A stretch of 64,000 nucleotides of DNA from contig NZ_JAHLME010000001.1 in NCBI RefSeq assembly GCF_018919395.1, positions 806,001 through 870,000 on the forward strand, read 5' to 3'. Origin of the DNA: Geomonas azotofigens (GTDB taxonomy: Bacteria > Desulfobacterota > Desulfuromonadia > Geobacterales > Geobacteraceae). Position numbers and translations under genes: made by a program. The stretch's first letter is position 1, and the number at the start of each line of letters is the position of its first letter. The notes under the pieces are model-generated. The model was not told the DNA's origin, searched no databases, and worked only from the letters and a program-made list of their open reading frames with translations. Shown in pieces: positions 27,932 through 37,203 of this stretch.

Positions 27932-29155
27932 ATGAAGATAGCCATCATCTCAGGATGCACGGGAGCGATTGCCATGCTGTTGGCCGGAGCGGCGCTGACC
28001 GCGGGGATGGAGTTCCCGCAGGGGACGGCCACTCCCTCCGAGACCTGCGGCACGTGTCACAAGGCGATCTACCGCGAGTTCGCCTTCGGCTTCGGCAGCG
28101 ACCTGCACTACCAGCCGACGACGATCCCGCAGAAGGAGGGGGAGGCGATCCCGATGCCGGCGGGCGTTTCGGCGACTGCTACCGCGCACGCCTTTGCCGG
28201 CGCTGAAAGGTACCCGGTGCACGCCCGGGAGGCCGAGGAGGAGGGACGCTCCTGCAACGCCTGCCACTATCCCGAACCGTTCGCCATCCCCGACATCAAC
28301 GTGGTCGAGATGACCAAGCCCAAGGCACGCGGCAAGGACAAGGAGGCGGTCGGCATCACCTGTGCGAGCTGCCACCTCACCCCGGAAGGAAAGATCCGTT
28401 CCGCCCATGCCGTCTACGCCCCGCACGCAACGGTGGTCGATCTCGGCATTCAGACCTCGGCGATGTGCGCCTACTGCCACAGCATGGGCAAACGGGTGGT
28501 CGGCAAGCAGACGCAGACCTTCCTTGAGTGGCGCGAGGACTTCTTAAAGCCGGGGCTGGGGAGACTGCAATGCCAGGACTGCCACATGCCGCGCACCATG
28601 CGCAAGGTGGCCGAGGATTTCGACAACCCGGAGCGTCCGGTGGCGCGGCACCTGTGGACCGGTGGACGTTCGCAGCAGCGGCTGGCCAGCGCGCTCAGCA
28701 TGGCGATCAGCCAGCCCGCCGAAGGGAAGGCCGATCTCGCCTTCCACCTGATCAACATCGGTGCCGGGCACTCGGTGCCCACCGGCTCCAACCGGCGGGC
28801 GATCTACTTGAACGTCGTGGTGTCCGATCAGATGGGCAAGCCGGTGGCGACCAGGGAATGGATGTTCGCCCCCTCCTACGGTCCCCGCCCGGATGACAGG
28901 AAATTCCTGGAAGAGGACAAGAAGCGTCCCGACGCGGTGGCGGCGAGCCAGGCCGACGCGCAGGGGCCGCATGAGGCCATCATCAGGGCCGGCGAGGAGC
29001 GCATCCTCACCTGGACCCCCGCGCTGCCCAGCGGCAGCTACACCGTCAAGGCGCGCCTGATCTACGACCTGAACCGCTACAACAGCCGTTCCTTCACCGA
29101 CGACCAGACCGATATGAACGGGGCGACCCTGACCCTGAAGATCAAGAAGAGCTGA
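27932..29155 (+). CDS. Secreted pentahaem c-type cytochrome
   Basis: A 407-residue exported protein with five CxxCH haem sites (CGTCH, CNACH, CASCH, CAYCH, CQDCH) in the first ~215 residues after a signal peptide. A C-terminal half without haem motifs looks like a beta-rich domain (ADLAFHLINIGAGHSVPTG, YTVKARLIYDLNRYN). The GAGHSVPTG segment recurs in cytochrome c554/NrfB-like families with a beta-sandwich. Expected location is the periplasm or outer surface, in electron transfer. AGGAGG lies 5 nt before the ATG at 27932; upstream in-frame codons are not supported. It lies directly upstream of cooA on the same strand and carries a CooA-like operator, so it may be the electron outlet of CO oxidation (inference). 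Confidence 0.85.
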   Translation: MKIAIISGCTGAIAMLLAGAALTAGMEFPQGTATPSETCGTCHKAIYREFAFGFGSDLHYQPTTIPQKEGEAIPMPAGVSATATAHAFAGAERYPVHAREAEEEGRSCNACHYPEPFAIPDINVVEMTKPKARGKDKEAVGITCASCHLTPEGKIRSAHAVYAPHATVVDLGIQTSAMCAYCHSMGKRVVGKQTQTFLEWREDFLKPGLGRLQCQDCHMPRTMRKVAEDFDNPERPVARHLWTGGRSQQRLASALSMAISQPAEGKADLAFHLINIGAGHSVPTGSNRRAIYLNVVVSDQMGKPVATREWMFAPSYGPRPDDRKFLEEDKKRPDAVAASQADAQGPHEAIIRAGEERILTWTPALPSGSYTVKARLIYDLNRYNSRSFTDDQTDMNGATLTLKIKKS

Positions 29156-29541: not shown

Positions 29542-30201
29542 ATGCCGAACAAGATGAAGTTGCACGATGCGGACCTCCTCTCGCTCTTCCACGCCGATTC
29601 CGACTTCCAGGCGCACTTCACGCCGCGGCACTACGCCCGCAAGACCCTGGTCTATTCCCCGTTCGAGGAGAAGAACCTTGTCTTCGTGGTGAGAAGCGGG
29701 CGTCTCCGCATCTACCTCAGTTACGAGGACAAGGAGTTCACCCTGGCCCTGCTGGAAAAGGGGGACGTCTTCAGCACCCATACCCCCGCGTTCGTGCAGG
29801 CGCTGGAGGGGACGGAGATCCTGGTCTGCAGTACCGCCACCTTCCGCGAGGCGCTCGCCCGTTGTCCGGAACTCTCCCTCACCATGGTGAAGGTGCTCGG
29901 GGAGTTGTTGCAGAGCTCCATCCAGACCATTGAGGGGCTTGCCTTCAAGGACGTCCGGCTGCGCCTGGTCGATTTCCTGGTTGGCGCAGCGGCGGACCGC
30001 GGACGGGTGACCGCCGACGGGACCGTGGTGCAGCTGGGTCTTGGTACCGAGGACATCGCCCTGCTGATCGGTACCACCCGCCAGACCATCTCCCAGATCA
30101 TCAACGATTTCATCAAGTCCGACCTGCTGGTGAAGATTGACCGCAAGACCCTGCTCATCAAGGATCTGGATGCCCTCAAGGAGATGAAGGAACTTCCGTG
30201 A
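29542..30201 (+). CDS. cooA: CooA-type CO-sensing transcription regulator (CRP/FNR family)
   Basis: A 219-residue homodimeric regulator close in length to the 222-residue R. rubrum CooA. The effector domain (1-130) has VVRSGRLRIYLSYEDKEF and GDVFSTHTPAF, which align with CooA VVVDGRLRVYL and GDMFCMH: haem ligand His77 is kept (His80 here), while Cys75 is Ser78. The N-terminus after the start is Met-Pro, placing Pro2 as in R. rubrum CooA where Pro2 is a haem ligand. The dimer helix has QSSIQTIEGLAFKDVR, and the helix-turn-helix is TEDIALLIGTTRQTISQIIND. The start is set by AAGGAG 7 nt before the ATG. Context is decisive: it directly precedes a coo operon that carries a CooA-form operator. Haem binding is inferred. 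Confidence 0.85.
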   Translation: MPNKMKLHDADLLSLFHADSDFQAHFTPRHYARKTLVYSPFEEKNLVFVVRSGRLRIYLSYEDKEFTLALLEKGDVFSTHTPAFVQALEGTEILVCSTATFREALARCPELSLTMVKVLGELLQSSIQTIEGLAFKDVRLRLVDFLVGAAADRGRVTADGTVVQLGLGTEDIALLIGTTRQTISQIINDFIKSDLLVKIDRKTLLIKDLDALKEMKELP

Positions 30202-30345
30202 GCGCGCTTCCCCTTGGTCGATAGCCTCGCCTCTCGCCTCAATTTCCTAAAGTATCCCCCTCCTCACAAATCCACGCGCCTCGCAAGGTGAACCGGTCCG
30301 CACTCCCTCTCCCCCTGGGAGAGAATTCACAAAAAAATCCCCAAT

Positions 30346-30361
30346 TGTCGGCTCCCCGACA
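30346..30361. promoter_or_regulatory. CooA operator of the coo operon
   Basis: TGTCG-GCTCCC-CGACA, a perfect 5-bp inverted repeat with 6-nt spacer. It differs from the R. rubrum TGTCA-N6-CGACA form at one position. Its centre (30353.5) lies about 41.5 nt upstream of the start predicted from the -10 at 30383, the class II activation geometry. Confidence 0.75.
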
Positions 30362-30382
30362 GACCGCGCGCCGTTTTTCTCC

Positions 30383-30388
30383 TACATT
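30383..30388 (+). promoter_or_regulatory. -10 element of the coo operon promoter
   Basis: TACATT matches TATAAT at 4 of 6 positions. The CooA operator covers the place where a -35 element would be, as expected for an activator-dependent promoter. Predicted start is about 30395, giving a ~34-nt leader. Confidence 0.5.
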
Positions 30389-30428
30389 GCCGGCCATGCT
30401 GCAACGTGTCCGCAACGAGGAGAGAACG

Positions 30429-31340
30429 ATGGCTATCCACGAACCAGGAAGCGCGGCCGAGCCGGTAGGGCTGTTTCGCATCAACACCGGGTCCTGCAAC
30501 GGCTGCGACGTCGAGCTGGCGGTGACCTCGGCGGTGGCCGAATTCGACGTGGAACAACTGGGCTGCCGCTACACGGAGTCGGCGCACGAGGCGGACATCG
30601 TCCTCGTCACCGGCCCGCTCACCGTCCGCGCCAGGGAAGAGGTGCTGCGCCTCCACGCTGCGACGCCGCGGGACAAGGTCACCGTCGCCGTGGGCGTCTG
30701 CCCGGTATCCGGGGGCGTCTTCCGCGACAGCTACGCGGTGGACGGCCCGCTCGAGCGGCACCTGCCGGTCGACGTGAACGTCCCGGGCTGCCCGCCGCGC
30801 CCGCAGGCCCTGCTGGAGGGGATCCGCGAAGCACTGGAGATCCGGCGCGCCCGCCGCGAGGGGTCGGAGCCGACTCGGCTGCCGGGTGACCGGAAGCAAC
30901 CCGGCAAACCAGGTACCGACAACTTTCCCGCCCGGGGCAGGCTCAGCTTTGACGCCGCCGCCTGCGTGGACTGCCGCATGTGCCGCCACGTCTGCGCCGC
31001 TGGGGCCATCCGCTTCGAGGAACGAGACGAAAGCGTCCGCCTCACCCTCTGGCACAACAGCTGCGTCTTCTGCGGCCTGTGCAGCCACTACTGCCCCACC
31101 GGCGCCCTCTCCGTCACCGGCGACTGGCGCCTCGACCACCGCGCCACCGACGCCTTCCGCCAGATCGAGCGGGGCGAGGTTCCCTACGCGCCCTGCGCCG
31201 GCTGCGGCGAACCCATCATCCCGGCCGCCCCGCAGCTCCTGCACGCCGCCTTCCGCCGCCCCAACCCCGAGATCGAGAAACTGAAAAACCTCTGCCCGAC
31301 CTGCCGGCAGCGCATGAGCATAGGAGTGCCCAGACGATGA
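30429..31340 (+). CDS. [NiFe]-hydrogenase small subunit fused to a 2x[4Fe-4S] ferredoxin (CooL-CooX-like)
   Basis: A 303-residue soluble protein. Residues 1-145 are a NuoB/CooL/EchC-type small subunit: GSCNGCDVELAV near residue 20, GVCPVSGGVF near 98 and NVPGCPPRPQALLEGI near 120 carry the four proximal-cluster cysteines. A linker of about 35 residues leads to a NuoI/CooX-like ferredoxin with CVDCRMCRHVC and CVFCGLCSHYC, each followed by a distant Pro or Ala. The last ~45 residues add CAGC and CPTC pairs that may form a zinc ribbon or extra cluster. In R. rubrum CooL and CooX are separate proteins. AGGAG precedes the ATG at 30429. It is the first gene of the operon, with a 4-nt ATGA overlap with the next. 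The fusion is clear; its electron path is inferred. Confidence 0.85.
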   Translation: MAIHEPGSAAEPVGLFRINTGSCNGCDVELAVTSAVAEFDVEQLGCRYTESAHEADIVLVTGPLTVRAREEVLRLHAATPRDKVTVAVGVCPVSGGVFRDSYAVDGPLERHLPVDVNVPGCPPRPQALLEGIREALEIRRARREGSEPTRLPGDRKQPGKPGTDNFPARGRLSFDAAACVDCRMCRHVCAAGAIRFEERDESVRLTLWHNSCVFCGLCSHYCPTGALSVTGDWRLDHRATDAFRQIERGEVPYAPCAGCGEPIIPAAPQLLHAAFRRPNPEIEKLKNLCPTCRQRMSIGVPRR

Positions 31341-32008
31341 GCGACCGCACCAGTCCCGCGAGCGACAATCTCCCGTTACCCCTCTCCACCCGGGAGAGGG
31401 GACCCGAAACTTCCCCTCACCCTGACCCTCTCCCGGAGGGAAAGGGGATTGTGGACGCCGGTGGTGGAAGATTGTACCCCGACCAATTTATCCATAATGT
31501 TGCCGCCGCCCTGGCGGGCGCTGCAGGGGAGCAGACCGAGGTGGCGTGGCGCCGGGACCGGAAGGGAGTCTTGACCGGCTGGTGCCGGCTTCCTTCCGGC
31601 GTGGCGCTGCTTCCGGCGGCGCGTGCCGTGGCGGAACTGCAGGGGCGGCTCGCCATGGTCACCGCCTACCTGCCGGAACGGGCCCAGGAGAAGGGCGAAC
31701 GCGAGATCGCCTACCACTTCGACCTGGACGGCGCCACGCTGACCCTCACCGTCATCCTCCCGTTGGAGTGGTCGCGCGTCCCGTCGCTTACCCCCATCTT
31801 CCGCAACTGCGACTGGCAGGAGCGGGAGCTGATGGAGCTCTACGACGTGCAGGTGGTGGGGCACCCCGACCCGAGGCGCCTGTTCCTCGATCACTCGCTC
31901 CCCCACGCCCCGTTCGAGCGCCTGGTCCCGTACTCGACATTCACCAACGCGGCCACCAGCAAGGCACTCTGGGACAAGGTCATGGCCGGCGCACGGGAGG
32001 ACGCATGA
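31337..32008 (+). CDS. NuoC-like hydrogenase subunit (CooU/EchD-like) with a repeat-derived N-terminus
   Basis: A 223-residue soluble subunit. The C-terminal half has the NuoC 30-kDa signature TPIFRNCDWQERELMELYDV followed by VVGHPDPRRLFLD, corresponding to CooU/EchD/HycE-N. These subunits join the large and small subunits of group 4 hydrogenases and complex I. Residues about 14-37 are translated from a GC-rich palindromic repeat (31376-31447; LPLPLSTRERGPETSPHPDP), and homology begins only near residue 45 (RLYPDQFIHNVA). The start overlaps the upstream stop by ATGA and the downstream gene start overlaps its stop in the same way, so translation is coupled. An alternative internal start in good context is not obvious. 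Subunit identity is confident; the status of the N-terminal insert is not. Confidence 0.8.
   Translation: MSDRTSPASDNLPLPLSTRERGPETSPHPDPLPEGKGIVDAGGGRLYPDQFIHNVAAALAGAAGEQTEVAWRRDRKGVLTGWCRLPSGVALLPAARAVAELQGRLAMVTAYLPERAQEKGEREIAYHFDLDGATLTLTVILPLEWSRVPSLTPIFRNCDWQERELMELYDVQVVGHPDPRRLFLDHSLPHAPFERLVPYSTFTNAATSKALWDKVMAGAREDA
31376..31447. repeat. GC-rich palindromic repeat inside the NuoC-like gene
   Basis: CCCCTCTCC-ACCC-GGGAGAGGGG and then CCCTCACCCTGACCCTCTCCC-type sequence with a GGAGGGAAAGGGG arm. It is the same dispersed family found in intergenic spaces here, but read in frame. Confidence 0.75.
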
Positions 32009-33087
32009 GCACGAAGATCATCGAACTGGGGTCGCACCAGCTGGCCCTCGAGGAGCCGATGTACTTCCGGGTGCAACTGGAAGGGGACCGGGTGGCCGAC
32101 CTCGACGTCATGCCGGGTCAGGTGCACCGCGGCATGGAGCACCTGGTGATGCGCCGAAACCTCTACCAGAACATCACCCTCCTGGAGCGCCTCTGCTCGC
32201 TTTGCTCCAACAGCCATCCCAGCACCTTCTGCGCGGCGGTCGAGGACGTCGCCGGCATCGCCATCCCCGAGCGGGCCGAGTACCTGCGCGCCGTGGCCGA
32301 CGAGATCAAGCGCATCGCCTCGCACCTCTTCTGCTGCGCGGTGCAGGCCAACGTGATCGGCGAGACCACGCTCTTTCGGCGCGTCATGGAGATCCGGGAG
32401 ATCATGCAGCGCGCCAAGGAGGCGATCTACGGCAACCGGATGGACCTGGCCGCCAACGTCATCGGTGGGGTGCGCTACGACCTCGATGCCGACTCCGCCG
32501 CCTACCTGGCCGGGCGGATGGAAGAGATGAAGAAGCCGCTGGACGAGCTCTACCTGCAATACGAGAACAATCCCGCCATCATGGCGCGCACCGCCGGTGT
32601 AGGGGTGCTGACGCGCGAGGCGGCTCGTGAGTGGGCCGTGGTGGGGCCGGTGGCGCGCGCCTGCGGCATCGACTACGACGTGCGCAAAAAGAGCCCCTAC
32701 GGCGCCTACGACCGCCTGGAGTTCGAGGTGGCGCTGCAAACGGCGGGGGACGTCCGGGCGCGCAACCTGGTGCGGCTTGCCGAGGCGCGCCAGTCGGTGT
32801 CCCTCATCGAACAGTGCCTGGACGGGCTCCCGGCCGGGCCGCTGTGCGCCGACACGCTCCCCGAGATCCCGGCGGGGGAGGCGATCGCCAAGTCGGAAGC
32901 GCCGCGCGGAGAGCTCATGTACTACCTGCGCACCGACGGCTCGGACTTCCCGGTGCGCCTTAAGTGGCGCGTCCCGTCCTACATGAACTGGGATGCCCTC
33001 AAGGTGATGCTGAAAGGGGAGCCGGTTGCCAACATCCCGCTCATCGTGAACAGCATCGATCCCTGCATCGCCTGTACGGACCGCTAG
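32005..33087 (+). CDS. cooH: [NiFe]-hydrogenase large subunit, CooH-like (group 4 type)
   Basis: A 360-residue large subunit that binds the Ni-Fe active site for proton reduction or H2 oxidation. The four cysteine ligands are present: Cys64 and Cys67 in ERLCSLCSNSH, and Cys354 and Cys357 in DPCIACTDR. The NuoD-like fold is seen in GQVHRGMEHL, LYQNITLLERLC and EIKRIASHL. The protein ends three residues after the last cysteine (TDR), so there is no C-terminal peptide for a maturation endopeptidase to remove, as reported for some CooH-like enzymes. The start overlaps the upstream stop (ATGA). Its partners are the fused small subunit/ferredoxin and the NuoC-like subunit. Membrane subunits equivalent to CooM and CooK are not encoded in this cluster. 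Confidence 0.88.
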   Translation: MSTKIIELGSHQLALEEPMYFRVQLEGDRVADLDVMPGQVHRGMEHLVMRRNLYQNITLLERLCSLCSNSHPSTFCAAVEDVAGIAIPERAEYLRAVADEIKRIASHLFCCAVQANVIGETTLFRRVMEIREIMQRAKEAIYGNRMDLAANVIGGVRYDLDADSAAYLAGRMEEMKKPLDELYLQYENNPAIMARTAGVGVLTREAAREWAVVGPVARACGIDYDVRKKSPYGAYDRLEFEVALQTAGDVRARNLVRLAEARQSVSLIEQCLDGLPAGPLCADTLPEIPAGEAIAKSEAPRGELMYYLRTDGSDFPVRLKWRVPSYMNWDALKVMLKGEPVANIPLIVNSIDPCIACTDR

Positions 33088-33095
33088 GGGGCGCC

Positions 33096-33656
33096 ATGCA
33101 CGAGATCACCCTGGTGACGGGGCTCTTCGAGATCATCAACGAGCAGGTGGCGGCCCAGGGGATCACCTCCATCTCCAAGGTGCGCCTCAAGGTGGGGGAG
33201 CTGGCGGCGGTGGAGCCGATGACGCTGGCGGCCTGCTTCGAGGTGGTGGCGGAGGGGACCGTGGCCCAAGGGGCGCAACTGGAGATCGTGGAGGTGCCGC
33301 TTGCCGGGCGCTGCCGCGGCTGCGGGGAGCGTTTCAGGATCGTGAATTTCAGCTTTAGCTGCCCTGCCTGCGGGGGAGAGGACGTGGATTTGGTTGGCGG
33401 TCGGGAACTGTACTTGGAGAGCCTCGATGCGACATGCAGGCCAATAAGTTGCGCCCCCGCGAACCGGCGCCATGCCAGTGAGGACGCGGTCGTTTCGGCG
33501 CCCCTCCCCCAGGAGGGGGGAGGCCGGGAGGGGGGATCAGATGCTGCGCTCCCCCTCCCTGACCCTCCCCCTCCGGGGGCGGGGACGTGGACGGGTGGAG
33601 GGAAGACGATGAGTAATCTGGATATGCAAAGGAGACCACATGAAGCGACAACGTGA
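33096..33656 (+). CDS. hypA: Hydrogenase/urease nickel chaperone HypA with a repeat-derived C-terminal tail
   Basis: HypA delivers nickel to [NiFe] hydrogenase and carries a structural zinc site. The first ~111 residues are a complete HypA: Met-His2-Glu3 nickel-binding start (MHEITLVTGLFEI), KVRLKVGELAAVEPM, and zinc cysteines 73, 76, 89 and 92 (CRGC, CPAC). It should end near residue 111-118, but the frame continues for about 75 residues through a GC-rich palindromic repeat (33500-33600) coding Pro/Gly-rich sequence such as PLPDPPPPGAGTWTGGG. It ends only after overlapping the cooF start by 17 nt. The gene starts 8 nt after cooH. Whether the tail is tolerated or marks a lost stop codon cannot be told from sequence. 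Confidence 0.85.
   Translation: MHEITLVTGLFEIINEQVAAQGITSISKVRLKVGELAAVEPMTLAACFEVVAEGTVAQGAQLEIVEVPLAGRCRGCGERFRIVNFSFSCPACGGEDVDLVGGRELYLESLDATCRPISCAPANRRHASEDAVVSAPLPQEGGGREGGSDAALPLPDPPPPGAGTWTGGGKTMSNLDMQRRPHEATT
33500..33600. repeat. GC-rich palindromic repeat pair inside the 3' part of hypA
   Basis: CCCCTCCCCC-AGGAGGGGGGAGG followed by CCCTCCCTGACCCTCCCCC-TCCGGGGGCGGGG and ACGTGGAC. A near-identical copy lies at 36125-36232, including the ACGTGGAC end. Confidence 0.8.
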
Positions 33657-34206
33657 AAATGCCATCGTATTTGCCGACCCCGAGCGCTGTCTCGGCTGCC
33701 ACGGCTGCGAGCTCGCCTGTGCGGTGGCCCATTCCGGGACCGGCCTCTACCAGGCGGCGCTCTCGGGGCTGACCCTGAGGCCGCGCAACCGCGTGGTGGC
33801 GGCGGGCGGCGTGATGATGCCGGTGCAGTGCCGCCAGTGCGAGGACGCCCCCTGCGCCGCGGCCTGCCCCACCGGCGCCATGCTGCAGGAGAGCGGGCAG
33901 GTCGGGGTGCGCGAGAAGAACTGCGTCGGGTGCAAGGTCTGCGTCATGGTCTGCCCCTTCGGCGCCATCAGCGTGAAGCACGAGGGGGCCGAACCCGAAA
34001 GCTGCCGCACCAACGGCGGTATCGCGCGCAAGTGCGACCTCTGCGCCGGCACCGGCCGCGACATCCCCGCCTGCGTCGAGGCCTGCCCGACCAAGGCGCT
34101 CACCCTCGTGGACCTGGAAGAGTACCGTCAGACCCTGATCGAGGCGCGGGCCGCCGAGCTGGCCCAATCGCTCCAACATCTCAAATCAAGGAAGGCAAGG
34201 ATATGA
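33640..34206 (+). CDS. cooF: CooF-type ferredoxin subunit with four [4Fe-4S] clusters
   Basis: A 188-residue iron-sulfur protein of the HycB/DmsB-like family that carries electrons from CO dehydrogenase to the hydrogenase. Four cysteine groups are visible: CLGCHGCELAC near residue 17, CRQCEDAPCAAACP near 65, CVGCKVCVMVCP near 97, and CDLC...CVEACP near 130-150. AAAGGAG lies 5 nt before the ATG at 33640. Its start lies inside the extended hypA frame, and its stop overlaps the cooS start (ATGA), so cooF and cooS are translationally coupled, as expected for direct partners. Assignment is firm from neighbourhood and motif order. Confidence 0.92.
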   Translation: MKRQRENAIVFADPERCLGCHGCELACAVAHSGTGLYQAALSGLTLRPRNRVVAAGGVMMPVQCRQCEDAPCAAACPTGAMLQESGQVGVREKNCVGCKVCVMVCPFGAISVKHEGAEPESCRTNGGIARKCDLCAGTGRDIPACVEACPTKALTLVDLEEYRQTLIEARAAELAQSLQHLKSRKARI

Positions 34207-36110
34207 CCATGAAGCTCAGCACCGATCCGTCCGCGGCGACCCTGTTGCCCATCGCCAAAAAAGAAGGCATCTCCACCGTCTGGGACCGCCATCGCGCCAT
34301 GCAGCCCCAGTGCGGCTTCGGCCAGTTGGGCGTCTGCTGCCGCATCTGCTGGAAAGGACCCTGCCGCATCGACCCGTTCGGGGACGGCCCCCAGCGCGGC
34401 ATCTGCGGCGCCGATGCCGACACCATCGTGGCCAGGAACGTGATCCGTATGATCGCCGCCGGCGCCGCCGGGCACTCCGAGCACGGCCGCCACGTGGCGC
34501 TCGCCCTGCAGGGCGTGGCGGAGGGGAGGCTCCCCGCCTACCAGATCCGCGACGAGGCCAAGCTGCGCGCGGTCGCGGCCAAACTGGGCATCTGCACCGA
34601 GGGGCGGGACATCCCGGCCATCGCCGCCGCGGTGGCCAAGGCGACCCTGGAGGACTTCCAGAACCAGGATCACGACGCCCCCTGCAACTGGATCGAGGCC
34701 ACCCTCACCAAGAAGCGCCTGGAGCGCCTGCAGGCCCTGCACGTCCTGCCGCACAATATCGACGCCGTCATCACCCAGATCATGGGGCGCACCCTGGTCG
34801 GGTGCGACGCCGACCCCGTCAACCTGATCCTCGGCGGCATCAAGGGGGCGCTGGCCGACTTCGACGGCATGTGCCTCGCCACCGAACTCTCCGACGCCCT
34901 CTTCGGGACCCCGAGCCCGGTGGTTACCGCCGCCAACCTCGGCGTCATCAAGCCGGACGCGGTCAACATCGCGGTGCACGGCCACAACCCGCTTTTAAGC
35001 GAGGTGGTTTGCGAGGTCGCCGGGCAGATGGACGAGGAGGCCAGGAAGGCAGGGGCGAAGGACGGCATCAACATCGTCGGCATCTGCTGCACCGGCAACG
35101 AGGTCATGGTGCGCCACGGCATTCCGCTCGCCGCGAACTACCTGTCCCAGGAACTGGCGCTGGTGACCGGCGCGGTCGACGCCATGGTGGTCGACGTGCA
35201 GTGCATCATGCCCTCGGTGAGCGAGATCGGCGCCTGCTTCCACACCGCCGTCATCACCACCATGGCCGAAAACAAGATCCCCGGGGCCACCCACGTCGAC
35301 TTCAAGGAGGAGACCGCCCTGGAGAGCGCGCGCCGCATCGTGGCCACCGCCATCGAGGCGTACAAGCGCCGCGACCCGCGCCGGGTCAACATACCGGACT
35401 TCAAGCAGACCGCCATCGTCGGTTTCGGCGTCGAGTCCGTGGTGGCGGCGCTGGCGACCCTGAACCCGGAGGATCCGCTCCAGCCGCTCATCGAGAACAT
35501 CGCCAACGGCAACATCCGCGGCATCGCCCTCTTCGCCGGCTGCAACTCGACCCAGGTGGCGCAGGACAGCAGCTTCGTCACCATGGCCAAGAAGCTCGCC
35601 GCCAACAACGTGCTCATGCTCGCCACCGGCTGCGGCGCCGGCTCCTTCGCCAAGCATGGCCTGATGACCCAGGAGGCGACGCTCGAGTACGCCGGGGACA
35701 CCCTCAAGGCGGTCATGACTGCCATCGGCACTTCCGCCGGGCTGAACGGGCCGCTGCCGCTCGTTCTGCACATGGGCTCCTGCGTGGACAACAGCCGCGC
35801 CGTCCAGGTGGCGGTGGCCGTGGCCGACAAGCTCGGCGTCGATCTCGACCAGCTCCCGCTGGTGGCGTCCGCGCCCGAGGCGATGTCGGAGAAGGCGGTC
35901 GCCATCGGCACCTGGAGCGTGGCGCTCGGCATCCCGACCCACCTGGGCACCATGCCGCAGGTGACAGGCTCGGCCAAGGTGACCGAGCTCCTGACCCAGA
36001 CGGCCAAGGACCTCTTGGGCGGGTACTTCCTGGTGGAGCTCGACCCGAATCTCGCCGCCGACAAGCTCCTGGAGGTCATCGAGGAGCGCAGGAAGGGACT
36101 GGGGATCTGA
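34203..36110 (+). CDS. cooS: Nickel-iron carbon monoxide dehydrogenase, catalytic subunit
   Basis: Oxidises CO to CO2 at a Ni-4Fe-4S C-cluster. At 635 residues it matches the 639-residue R. rubrum enzyme. The N-terminal cysteine cluster (CGFGQLGVCCRICWKGPCRI, then GICGAD) binds the D- and B-clusters. C-cluster residues are in HGHNPLLSE (His), GICCTGNE, DVQCIMPS, FAGCNSTQ, ATGCGAGSF and MGSCVDN. I choose the ATG at 34203, overlapping the cooF stop; a second ATG two codons later is also possible. It is a stand-alone CODH with no acetyl-CoA synthase subunit nearby. With CooF and the hydrogenase subunits it could couple CO oxidation to H2 formation, or pass electrons on to the respiratory cytochromes. 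Confidence 0.96.
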   Translation: MTMKLSTDPSAATLLPIAKKEGISTVWDRHRAMQPQCGFGQLGVCCRICWKGPCRIDPFGDGPQRGICGADADTIVARNVIRMIAAGAAGHSEHGRHVALALQGVAEGRLPAYQIRDEAKLRAVAAKLGICTEGRDIPAIAAAVAKATLEDFQNQDHDAPCNWIEATLTKKRLERLQALHVLPHNIDAVITQIMGRTLVGCDADPVNLILGGIKGALADFDGMCLATELSDALFGTPSPVVTAANLGVIKPDAVNIAVHGHNPLLSEVVCEVAGQMDEEARKAGAKDGINIVGICCTGNEVMVRHGIPLAANYLSQELALVTGAVDAMVVDVQCIMPSVSEIGACFHTAVITTMAENKIPGATHVDFKEETALESARRIVATAIEAYKRRDPRRVNIPDFKQTAIVGFGVESVVAALATLNPEDPLQPLIENIANGNIRGIALFAGCNSTQVAQDSSFVTMAKKLAANNVLMLATGCGAGSFAKHGLMTQEATLEYAGDTLKAVMTAIGTSAGLNGPLPLVLHMGSCVDNSRAVQVAVAVADKLGVDLDQLPLVASAPEAMSEKAVAIGTWSVALGIPTHLGTMPQVTGSAKVTELLTQTAKDLLGGYFLVELDPNLAADKLLEVIEERRKGLGI

Positions 36111-36124
36111 TCGGATAGGGACGA

Positions 36125-36232
36125 CAGCTCCTCCCCCCGGAGGGGGGAGGTTGGGAGGGGGGAGCCTGAACTGGAACTGGACCTGCCCCCTCCCTAACCC
36201 TCCCCCTCCGGGGGCGGGGACGTGGACCGGGC
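36125..36232. repeat. GC-rich palindromic repeat pair between cooS and cooC
   Basis: Same two-part element as at 33500-33600 (CTCCCCCCGGAGGGGGGAGG, then CCCTCCCTAACCCTCCCCC and GGGGGCGGGGACGTGGAC). It fills most of the 145-nt gap between cooS and cooC, so it may affect relative expression of cooC. Confidence 0.8.
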
Positions 36233-36255
36233 GAAGCAATAAAGGAGCAGCAATT

Positions 36256-37203
36256 ATGTGCGACCATCACAACCACGCGCATCATCACGACCATGACCAC
36301 GACCATGACCATGACCATGACCATGACCATGACCACGGCCATGACCACGGCCATGACCACGGCCATGATCATCACCACCATCACCCCCACCTCCACGCCG
36401 TCCCCCAGCGCGGGCCGGGACTGAAGATCGCCATCACCGGCAAGGGGGGCGTGGGCAAGACCACCTTCGCGAGCCTCCTCTGCCGCGCCTTCGCCAATGA
36501 CGGCGCCAGGGTGCTCGCCGTCGACGCGGACCCGGACGCCAACCTGGCCGCGGCGCTCGGGATCCCGGCCGAACGCGCCGCGGAACTCCAGCCGGTGGCA
36601 CGCATGAAGGAACTCGCCGAGGAGCGCACCGGCGCGAGCGGCGGCTACGGCTCCTTCTTCAAGCTGAACCCGAAGGTGAGCGACCTGCCGGAGCAGTTCT
36701 GCCTGGAGCAGGACGGCATCAGGTTCCTCTGGATGGGAACCCTGGAACAGGGGGGAGGCGGCTGCGCCTGCCCGGAAAGCACCCTGGTCAAGCGGTTGAT
36801 GGGGCACCTCCTCCTGGAGCGGGACGAGGTGGTGGTCATGGACATGGAGGCGGGGCTCGAGCACCTCGGGCGCCGTACGGCGGAATCCGTGGACGCCCTG
36901 GTGGTCGTGGTGGAACCGGGCCAGCGCAGCCTGCAGACGGCCCGCCAGATCACGCGGCTGGCCGCCGATCTCGGCATCGATGAGGTCTTCGTGGTGGGAA
37001 GCAAGATCCGCGACGATGACGACCGGCGCCTTGTCGAGGAGGAGATCCCCCAGCGGCAGCTGCTGGGGACCATCTCCTTCTGCGAGGAGGTGCGGCGGGC
37101 CGACCGCGAGAACCGCGCGCCGGACCGGCTCAGCGCGCAGGCGCTCCGGGAGGTGCGCGCCATCAAGGACCGCATGCTCGCGCTGCGTGGGAACGCCAAG
37201 TAG
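36256..37203 (+). CDS. cooC: CooC nickel-insertion ATPase with an N-terminal His-rich metal-binding tract
   Basis: CooC is a MinD/SIMIBI-class dimeric ATPase that inserts nickel into CODH. From the 315-residue start, residues 4-47 hold about 26 histidines, mostly as His-Asp and His-Gly-His-Asp repeats. The ATPase domain starts at about 55 with P-loop GKGGVGKTT at 62-70, VDADPDANL near 89-97, the CxC nickel-binding pair Cys170-x-Cys172 (GGCACPE), and VVVVEPGQRS. R. rubrum uses a separate His-rich protein, CooJ, as nickel store, so this gene appears to combine both roles. AAAGGAG precedes the ATG at 36256. It is the last gene of the operon, followed by a hairpin. The codon repeat (CAT/CAC-GAC) suggests expansion by slippage. 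Confidence 0.93.
   Translation: MCDHHNHAHHHDHDHDHDHDHDHDHDHGHDHGHDHGHDHHHHHPHLHAVPQRGPGLKIAITGKGGVGKTTFASLLCRAFANDGARVLAVDADPDANLAAALGIPAERAAELQPVARMKELAEERTGASGGYGSFFKLNPKVSDLPEQFCLEQDGIRFLWMGTLEQGGGGCACPESTLVKRLMGHLLLERDEVVVMDMEAGLEHLGRRTAESVDALVVVVEPGQRSLQTARQITRLAADLGIDEVFVVGSKIRDDDDRRLVEEEIPQRQLLGTISFCEEVRRADRENRAPDRLSAQALREVRAIKDRMLALRGNAK

Follow-up and report, generated by a model that had tools for sequence, protein, structure and literature searches.

Can the catalytic module of a membrane-bound, energy-converting hydrogenase be kept in nature once its ion-pumping arm is gone? The question is raised by a coo locus at positions 29542-37203 of a 64,000-nucleotide stretch of Geomonas azotofigens DNA (hereafter the window), which is part of contig C1 in a draft genome of 4.97 Mb (18 contigs, completeness rating 100%). 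The first-pass annotation had described an eight-gene, CO-responsive island that joins a carbon monoxide dehydrogenase (CODH) to a hydrogenase without any multi-helix membrane protein, and had proposed a compact, possibly non-pumping system. Exact reading frames and domain families confirmed the island, and a Kyte-Doolittle scan confirmed the lack of multi-helix proteins. The proposed compact, non-pumping character is supported by gene content, a gene fusion, the loss of a helix and of an interface, and the retention of catalytic residues. As judged from sequence, the locus probably encodes a CooA-controlled, cytoplasmic, non-pumping CO:proton oxidoreductase that descended from the membrane-bound CODH/energy-converting hydrogenase (ECH) encoded by cooMKLXUH and cooFSC.

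The eight genes are genuine, all lie on the + strand and form a single close-packed block from cooA to cooC:

29542..30201, + strand: cooA, a CRP-family regulator of 219 amino acids with Crp-type helix-turn-helix and cyclic nucleotide monophosphate (cNMP)-like domains; among solved structures, CooA-1 (2fmy, E 1e-65; 2hkx) matches best
30346..30361, + strand: CooA-type palindrome TGTCGGCTCCCCGACA, 83 bp before cooLX, fitting TGTCRN6YGACA
30429..31340, + strand: cooL-cooX fusion of 303 amino acids, hydrogenase small subunit (PF01058 at 23-134) plus two-cluster ferredoxin (Fer4 at about 173-227)
31337..32008, + strand: cooU, NuoC-like subunit of 223 amino acids (PF00329, 62.5 bits)
32005..33087, + strand: cooH, [NiFe] large subunit of 360 amino acids (PF00346, PF00374)
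33096..33656, + strand: hypA, Ni insertion protein (TIGR00100, 96.4 bits; cut-off 88.1)
33640..34206, + strand: cooF, Fe-S electron carrier of 188 amino acids with several 4Fe-4S domain matches
34203..36110, + strand: cooS, Ni-CO dehydrogenase of 635 amino acids (TIGR01702, 780 bits; cut-off 478)
36256..37203, + strand: cooC, Ni-insertion ATPase of 315 amino acids with a P-loop CbiA-type domain, which accompanies coo genes in relatives

The CooL-CooX chain resembles MbhJ/HycG and, more weakly, MbhN/HycF, and has a Cys quartet at its C-terminus. The best solved matches of CooH are HycE of formate hydrogenlyase (FHL; 7z0s) and MbhL (6cfw), and that of CooS is 1jqk (E 1e-278). An equivalog-level CooS with adjoining CooF and CooC identifies a CooS-type Ni-CODH; CooF is 41-98% identical in relatives with a CooF match. 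The locus shares CooA control, CooL, CooX, CooU, CooH, HypA, CooF, CooS and CooC with the CooMKLXUH-CooFSC systems of Rhodospirillum rubrum, Carboxydothermus and Carboxydocella. Its CooH is 63% identical to that of Carboxydocella, and L159, of the same class, has the complete operon with an identical gene order. The large subunit is nested in the CooH clade, and CooL, CooX and CooU are likewise of this type. The locus differs from these systems in that CooM and CooK are missing (with no extra NuoH-type gene in the genus), CooL and CooX are fused, the CooX N-terminal helix is absent, and the beta1-beta2 and NDUFS7-type loops are changed. It does not belong to the Ehr group, as CooH keeps all four Ni-binding cysteines.

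Relatives were gathered by a scan of one genome per species, which gave 105 confirmed cases, 80 of them returned as loci, with CooH identities of 52-92%. With Carboxydocella CooM and CooK as queries, both proteins were found in 66 of the 80. In L103 CooK is followed by the contig end, the contigs of L092 and L130 end too early, and L131 has neither gene nearby. Neither gene was found in ten loci (L058-L067), which belong to six Geomonas, Citrifermentans bremense, Pelotalea chapellei and two Deltaproteobacteria metagenome-assembled genomes. Together with eight further loci, the window included, they make up a membrane-less set of 18 genomes; by locus comparison and CooH tree, the closest kin of the window's locus are Geomonas species. 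CooH matches at E 1e-60 or better occurred in 33 of 141 genomes of the order: the same 18 at identities of at least 67%, and 15 that gave only group 4 relatives at 35-39%. Conservation counts omit L092, L103 and L130 (contig ends) and L131 (a distal case, see below), leaving 66 membrane-bearing and 10 membrane-less loci of the 80. Duplicates (L141-L143 of L065-L067, and L174 of L068) were not counted, and L160, L161, L172 and L173, which were added later, stand outside the counts of fusion, loop loss and retained residues.

How complete is the absence of the arm? In the Kyte-Doolittle scan, CooF and CooS each showed a single weak membrane segment and the other six proteins showed none; applied to Carboxydocella, the scan found 27 in CooM and eight in CooK. 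Elsewhere in the host genome, the search for CooM-, CooK-, NuoH- or NuoL-like genes proposed in the first-pass annotation revealed only two complex I-like loci and one Ehr-like locus, and no CooK orthologue. Nine Proton_antipo_M matches fall in three loci, two of them complex I-like with NuoD-type matches (C1 432-437 kb and 752-756 kb). The third (C11 1040-1050 kb) was called Ehr-like, its NuoD-like subunit being unmatched by NiFeSe_Hases and having no paired cysteines by eye. This Ehr-like complex (L010 2187-14612; G000 C11) has subunits resembling NuoL, NuoH and NuoD, and it is the NuoD-like one that lacks paired Ni-binding cysteines. The three NADHdh (NuoH/CooK-type) matches lie in the same three loci, and a CooK query gave only NuoH-level matches in the host genome (best 84 bits, 33% identity).

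The same holds across the group. Three NADHdh matches are present in 18 of the 19 genus genomes, and G044 has an additional, fragmentary fourth. Since cooH is carried by 14 of these genomes and absent from five, and the three matches occur with and without it, the number of NADHdh genes is independent of cooH. Proton_antipo_M matches number 9 to 12 per genus genome among the matches listed, again with and without cooH. No CooK orthologue was detected in any of the 18 genomes with a membrane-less locus (best 97 bits, NuoH level); the same query scored 345-425 bits in two CooK-holding genomes and 447 and 269 bits in two later ones. Beside cooL, cooM and cooK are absent from all 18 loci, including those of four one-contig relatives (G030, G037, G045 and G055). 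An assembly gap can thus be rejected, given an arrangement seen in 18 genomes, four of them one-contig, with no CooK orthologue in any; so can, for CooK, a distal cooMK in the 18 genomes.

CooA control is suggested by a CRP-family protein closest to CooA and a matching site before the operon. The consensus TGTCRN6YGACA (quoted from PMC6085454) is matched exactly 82-122 bp before cooL in 17 of the 18 membrane-less loci, and with one mismatch in L065. Because the pattern by itself is no commoner in the host genome than chance predicts (six places, against six for the reversed control), the weight of the site rests on its place and conservation. A hidden CooA-controlled partner was rejected: the five other exact sites are at chance level, and no NuoL- or NuoH-like gene was seen by eye in the 3 kb surrounding each. 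One of these five sites (L156 ~1501; G000 C11:637851-637866) stands just before a gene whose product resembles a hybrid-cluster protein, a relative of CooS.

The missing arm is accompanied by changes on the surfaces that would face it. CooL and CooX form a single open frame in 17 of the 18 membrane-less loci and in none of 69 others. The CooX N-terminal helix (MFSFLKILVRNLIQGPSTDPFPFGE in L068) is replaced by a linker in membrane-less loci, in a comparison for which about one third of the membrane-bearing loci were inspected; its FHL counterpart sits near the membrane surface (PMC9474812). At CooH position 12, the 66 membrane-bearing loci have His (62) or Asn (4), and all 18 membrane-less ones have Gln. 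This position aligns with HycE His188 of the beta1-beta2 loop, which lies in a pocket for HycC Cys537 (PMC9474812). For this alignment the numbering of the solved HycE chain was taken to run 12 ahead of that of the protein, since CooH Glu16, Glu17 and Cys354 then match Asp192, Glu193 and Cys531. CooL 45-56 aligns with HycG 69-80, an interface loop in Escherichia coli FHL (PMC9474812); within it, positions 49, 50 and 54 are Cys (66/66), Gly (65/66) and His (66/66) in membrane-bearing loci and mostly Thr, Glu and Glu in membrane-less ones. In the membrane-less set, the arm-facing loops known from CooMKLXUH enzymes have thus lost CooH His12 and CooL Cys49, Gly50 and His54.

In contrast to the interface, the catalytic parts are intact. 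All 18 membrane-less loci keep the Ni cysteines 64, 67, 354 and 357 of CooH, together with Glu16, Glu17, Ser106, His107, Arg218, Glu260, Arg301 and Asp352; the CooL cluster cysteines 23, 26, 91 and 121; and twelve CooX cysteines, including the C-terminal quartet, whose FHL counterpart lies by the electron-input side (PMC9474812). The ratio of nonsynonymous to synonymous substitution rates (dN/dS) was 0.02-0.28 over five genes and seven pairs (0.04-0.13 for cooH, seven pairs; 0.02-0.10 for cooS). By this measure, the membrane-less coo genes are under purifying selection.

In three trees the membrane-less CooH proteins form one clade within membrane-bearing CooH. Its support was 100 with 18 rows (SH-aLRT, the Shimodaira-Hasegawa-like approximate likelihood-ratio test), 100/100 with 14 rows, and 100/100 with 14 rows including L172; the second and third trees comprised 34 and 31 rows, hand-picked from a larger set. 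Because the clade is nested among membrane-bearing CooH, the membrane-less state is, on these trees, derived from a membrane-bound ancestor, and an ancestral soluble hydrogenase is rejected. The first-pass annotation had counted a grouping of the large subunit with a complete membrane-bound type as evidence against an armless system. That grouping is true to the letter; taken with the other results, it points to descent from that type and does not imply that the arm is present.

We propose the following route. CooS would oxidize CO, and electrons would pass through CooF to the CooX and CooL domains of the one fused chain and on to CooH, which would reduce protons to H2 in the cytoplasm. With the pumping arm (CooM and CooK) and the docking surfaces gone, the reaction would be uncoupled from ion transport. 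The predicted product, H2, could be recaptured by the genome's own uptake-type hydrogenases, of which there are three strong NiFeSe_Hases loci (686-798 bits). By eye, L019 has a small subunit that bears a twin-arginine-like signal, along with a short membrane protein; L020 has a multi-helix membrane protein and L021 a small subunit. Energy would then come from respiration or H2 cycling, as H2 made inside and oxidized outside would still separate charge; CO removal would be a compatible second role. The first-pass annotation had left three arrangements open for the hydrogenase module: soluble, attached to another complex, or wired to cytochromes. A complex that is probably soluble fits best, and attachment elsewhere is disfavoured. 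Cytochrome wiring finds no support, because none of the eight related loci compared has a homologue of the upstream cytochrome; this multihaem gene, at 27932-29155 before cooA, is perhaps a strain-specific insertion.

Several points weigh against our proposal. It rests on sequence, so that activity, localization and expression are all predicted. In E. coli FHL, HycD mutations lower H2 production by 98-99% (PMC9474812), and by analogy an enzyme without the arm may have a low turnover. Genome-wide, CooM was looked for through Proton_antipo_M counts among the matches listed for the genus, and no CooM query was made. The loops hold only marginally more losses than expected (Fisher p of 0.040 and 0.045, or 0.074 when the CooH window is narrowed), and the changed positions that passed the filter (11 in CooH, 7 in CooL, 1 in CooX) lie mostly outside the loops. 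Nor is the loop signature absolute, as shown by the four membrane-bearing loci with Asn at CooH 12 and by L160, which has CooM and CooK and bears Thr at CooL 49. All linked changes map to a single stem branch, and therefore the locus counts are not independent events. Finally, in L144 the fusion is split by a frameshift. This frameshift, at the cooLX linker (L144 11334-12409; G045, a one-contig genome), may be a sequencing error or early decay.

Ions could still be pumped if the CooLX-CooU-CooH module docked on a borrowed complex I or Ehr-like arm, and the full set of membrane subunits is indeed encoded at the two complex I-like loci and the Ehr-like locus of the genome. However, each of these complexes has its own large subunit, the lost residues sit in loops common to FHL and complex I (PMC9474812), and the CooX membrane-surface helix is gone. 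In addition, the genome of one relative, G087 (90% complete), has only two NADHdh matches; these score at complex I level (425 and 422 bits), and no Ehr-type match was found in it. Because residues of complex I-superfamily loops are lost and G087 shows no Ehr-type NuoH, we regard such docking as quite unlikely. The hydrogenase domain might instead not serve as an H2 route at all: CooX could pass CO electrons on to ferredoxin or NAD(P), or the module could run in reverse and feed H2 electrons into the cytoplasm. A ferredoxin-CooL fusion could favour exchange with soluble carriers, and Geobacter sulfurreducens is reported to use CO without H2, CO reducing NADP+ there, with a different CODH cluster and no hydrogenase (PMC4703632). 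Yet the [NiFe] ligands and the tested proton-path residues are kept under purifying selection. Among them, Ser106 aligns with HycE Ser283, which is tied to H2 production (PMC9474812), and no NAD(P) oxidoreductase gene was recognized from cooA to cooC. We consider this reading unlikely.

That the locus is a decaying remnant, which lost its arm first and is now drifting, appears highly improbable. It could account for the L144 frameshift and for hypA not being found in L139, L140 and L172 by the search used, and non-function was thought possible for a membrane-less CooH-like enzyme of Sulfurospirillum multivorans (PMC5357620). Against it stand the low dN/dS values of cooH and cooS, the ligands kept in 18/18 loci, the conserved CooA site, and retention of the locus in 14 of 19 genus genomes.

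Other genomes bear on how such an enzyme could have arisen. In L159 the order is cooA-cooMKLXUH-hypA-cooFSC with ancestral loops, and CooM and CooK are also present in L160 and L161, which come from other parts of the phylum. The Consotaella locus L131 lacks an adjoining cooMK and yet keeps the ancestral loops and the CooX helix. Two CooK genes (350 and 345 bits) lie elsewhere in its genome, both accompanied by CooM, and L131 was accordingly rejected as a second membrane-less lineage. In Consotaella salsifontis (L131, L148 and L149) the system is split and duplicated: CooLXUH stands without adjoining cooMK, a second contig carries cooMKL, and a third contig has a complete cooMKLXUH. A class search with CooLX matched 22 of 277 genomes and added two informative cases. 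L172 has a fused CooLX, Gln at CooH 12, an altered CooL loop and a CooA site, and no cooMK within its 20 kb stretch. L173 (8582-9547; G628 C1) has unfused CooL and CooX, ancestral loops, and a CooK (44% identity) directly after cooA. Both CooK and CooM would be expected from unfused genes, but no CooM was found within 19 kb. Its CooK is changed at 29 of 82 near-invariant positions, including Glu150, Asp216 and Glu219. L173, which clusters with L068 apart from the membrane-less clade (100/99), is perhaps an anchored, non-pumping intermediate.

From these cases we tentatively suggest, as a possibility that falls somewhat short of even, that the Desulfuromonadia record a stepwise dismantling of a complex I-family pumping arm, ending with H2 cycling in place of pumping. 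The full form would be represented by L159 and by L068, whose contig is short. L173, in a separate lineage and with CooK but no adjoining CooM, would stand for an apparently anchor-only form, and the armless clade, in which CooLX is fused and the interface loops are altered, for the end form. The armless enzyme would run an uncoupled cytoplasmic water-gas shift, and H2 oxidized across the membrane would return energy.

A cluster of the same kind, by its published gene list, is cooLUH-hypA-cooFSC of Geobacter (now Citrifermentans) bemidjiensis (Gbem_0067-0074), described in 2010 with a proton gradient assumed; the main text of that paper contains neither the word cooM nor the word cooK (PMC2996986). 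The membrane-less cluster is carried by Citrifermentans bremense L064 and G030. G. bemidjiensis has also been listed as an owner of CODH-ECH, defined by large and small subunit genes (PMC6687684), and Geobacter with CODH/ECH and a CO-responsive regulator is mentioned in PMC13077300. The CODH cluster of G. sulfurreducens is different, with RcoM and an FAD-NAD(P) oxidoreductase (PMC4703632). EchEDFC of S. multivorans, likened here by description, is likewise reported as a CooH-like hydrogenase without membrane subunit genes, but has no CODH gene and nearly no transcript; in Sulfurospirillum sp. SCADC, CODH is said to remain adjacent to the CooH-like hydrogenase (PMC5357620). In E. coli FHL (HycBCDEFG and FdhF), HycE, HycG and HycF are homologous to CooH, CooL and CooX; FHL differs in having the membrane subunits HycC and HycD and a formate dehydrogenase in place of CODH (PMC9474812). 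In openly available papers, mostly represented by less than their full text, we recognized no report of CooM/CooK loss in Geobacterales; general background is given in PMC6344411, PMC4257681 and PMC6349859.

Two further features of the locus concern its nickel genes. The CooC N-terminus (window 36256-36390) has a long run of His-Asp/His-Gly repeats, resembling a built-in nickel store. A G+C-rich repeat pair occurs in two copies, at 33500-33604 in the 3' part of hypA and at 36127-36239 before cooC; the C-terminal tail of HypA is repeat-derived, with repeat copies D2 and D3 in the 3' part of the gene. An intragenic multicopy sequence was also described in the coo cluster of G. bemidjiensis (PMC2996986).

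If our proposal is correct, this natural enzyme, with no arm, changed arm-facing loops and an intact active site, would be a ready-made test case and possibly a compact soluble catalyst from CO to H2. A cytoplasmic subcomplex of the Pyrococcus furiosus membrane-bound hydrogenase, likewise a group 4 catalytic module but man-made, is reportedly active without the membrane part, going by the title of McTernan's 2015 paper. Surveys that define CODH-ECH by large and small subunit genes alone (PMC6687684) would score armless loci as energy-converting. The predicted energetics of CO use would also be altered for Geomonas, Citrifermentans and Pelotalea, for which the published reading presumed a proton gradient (PMC2996986).

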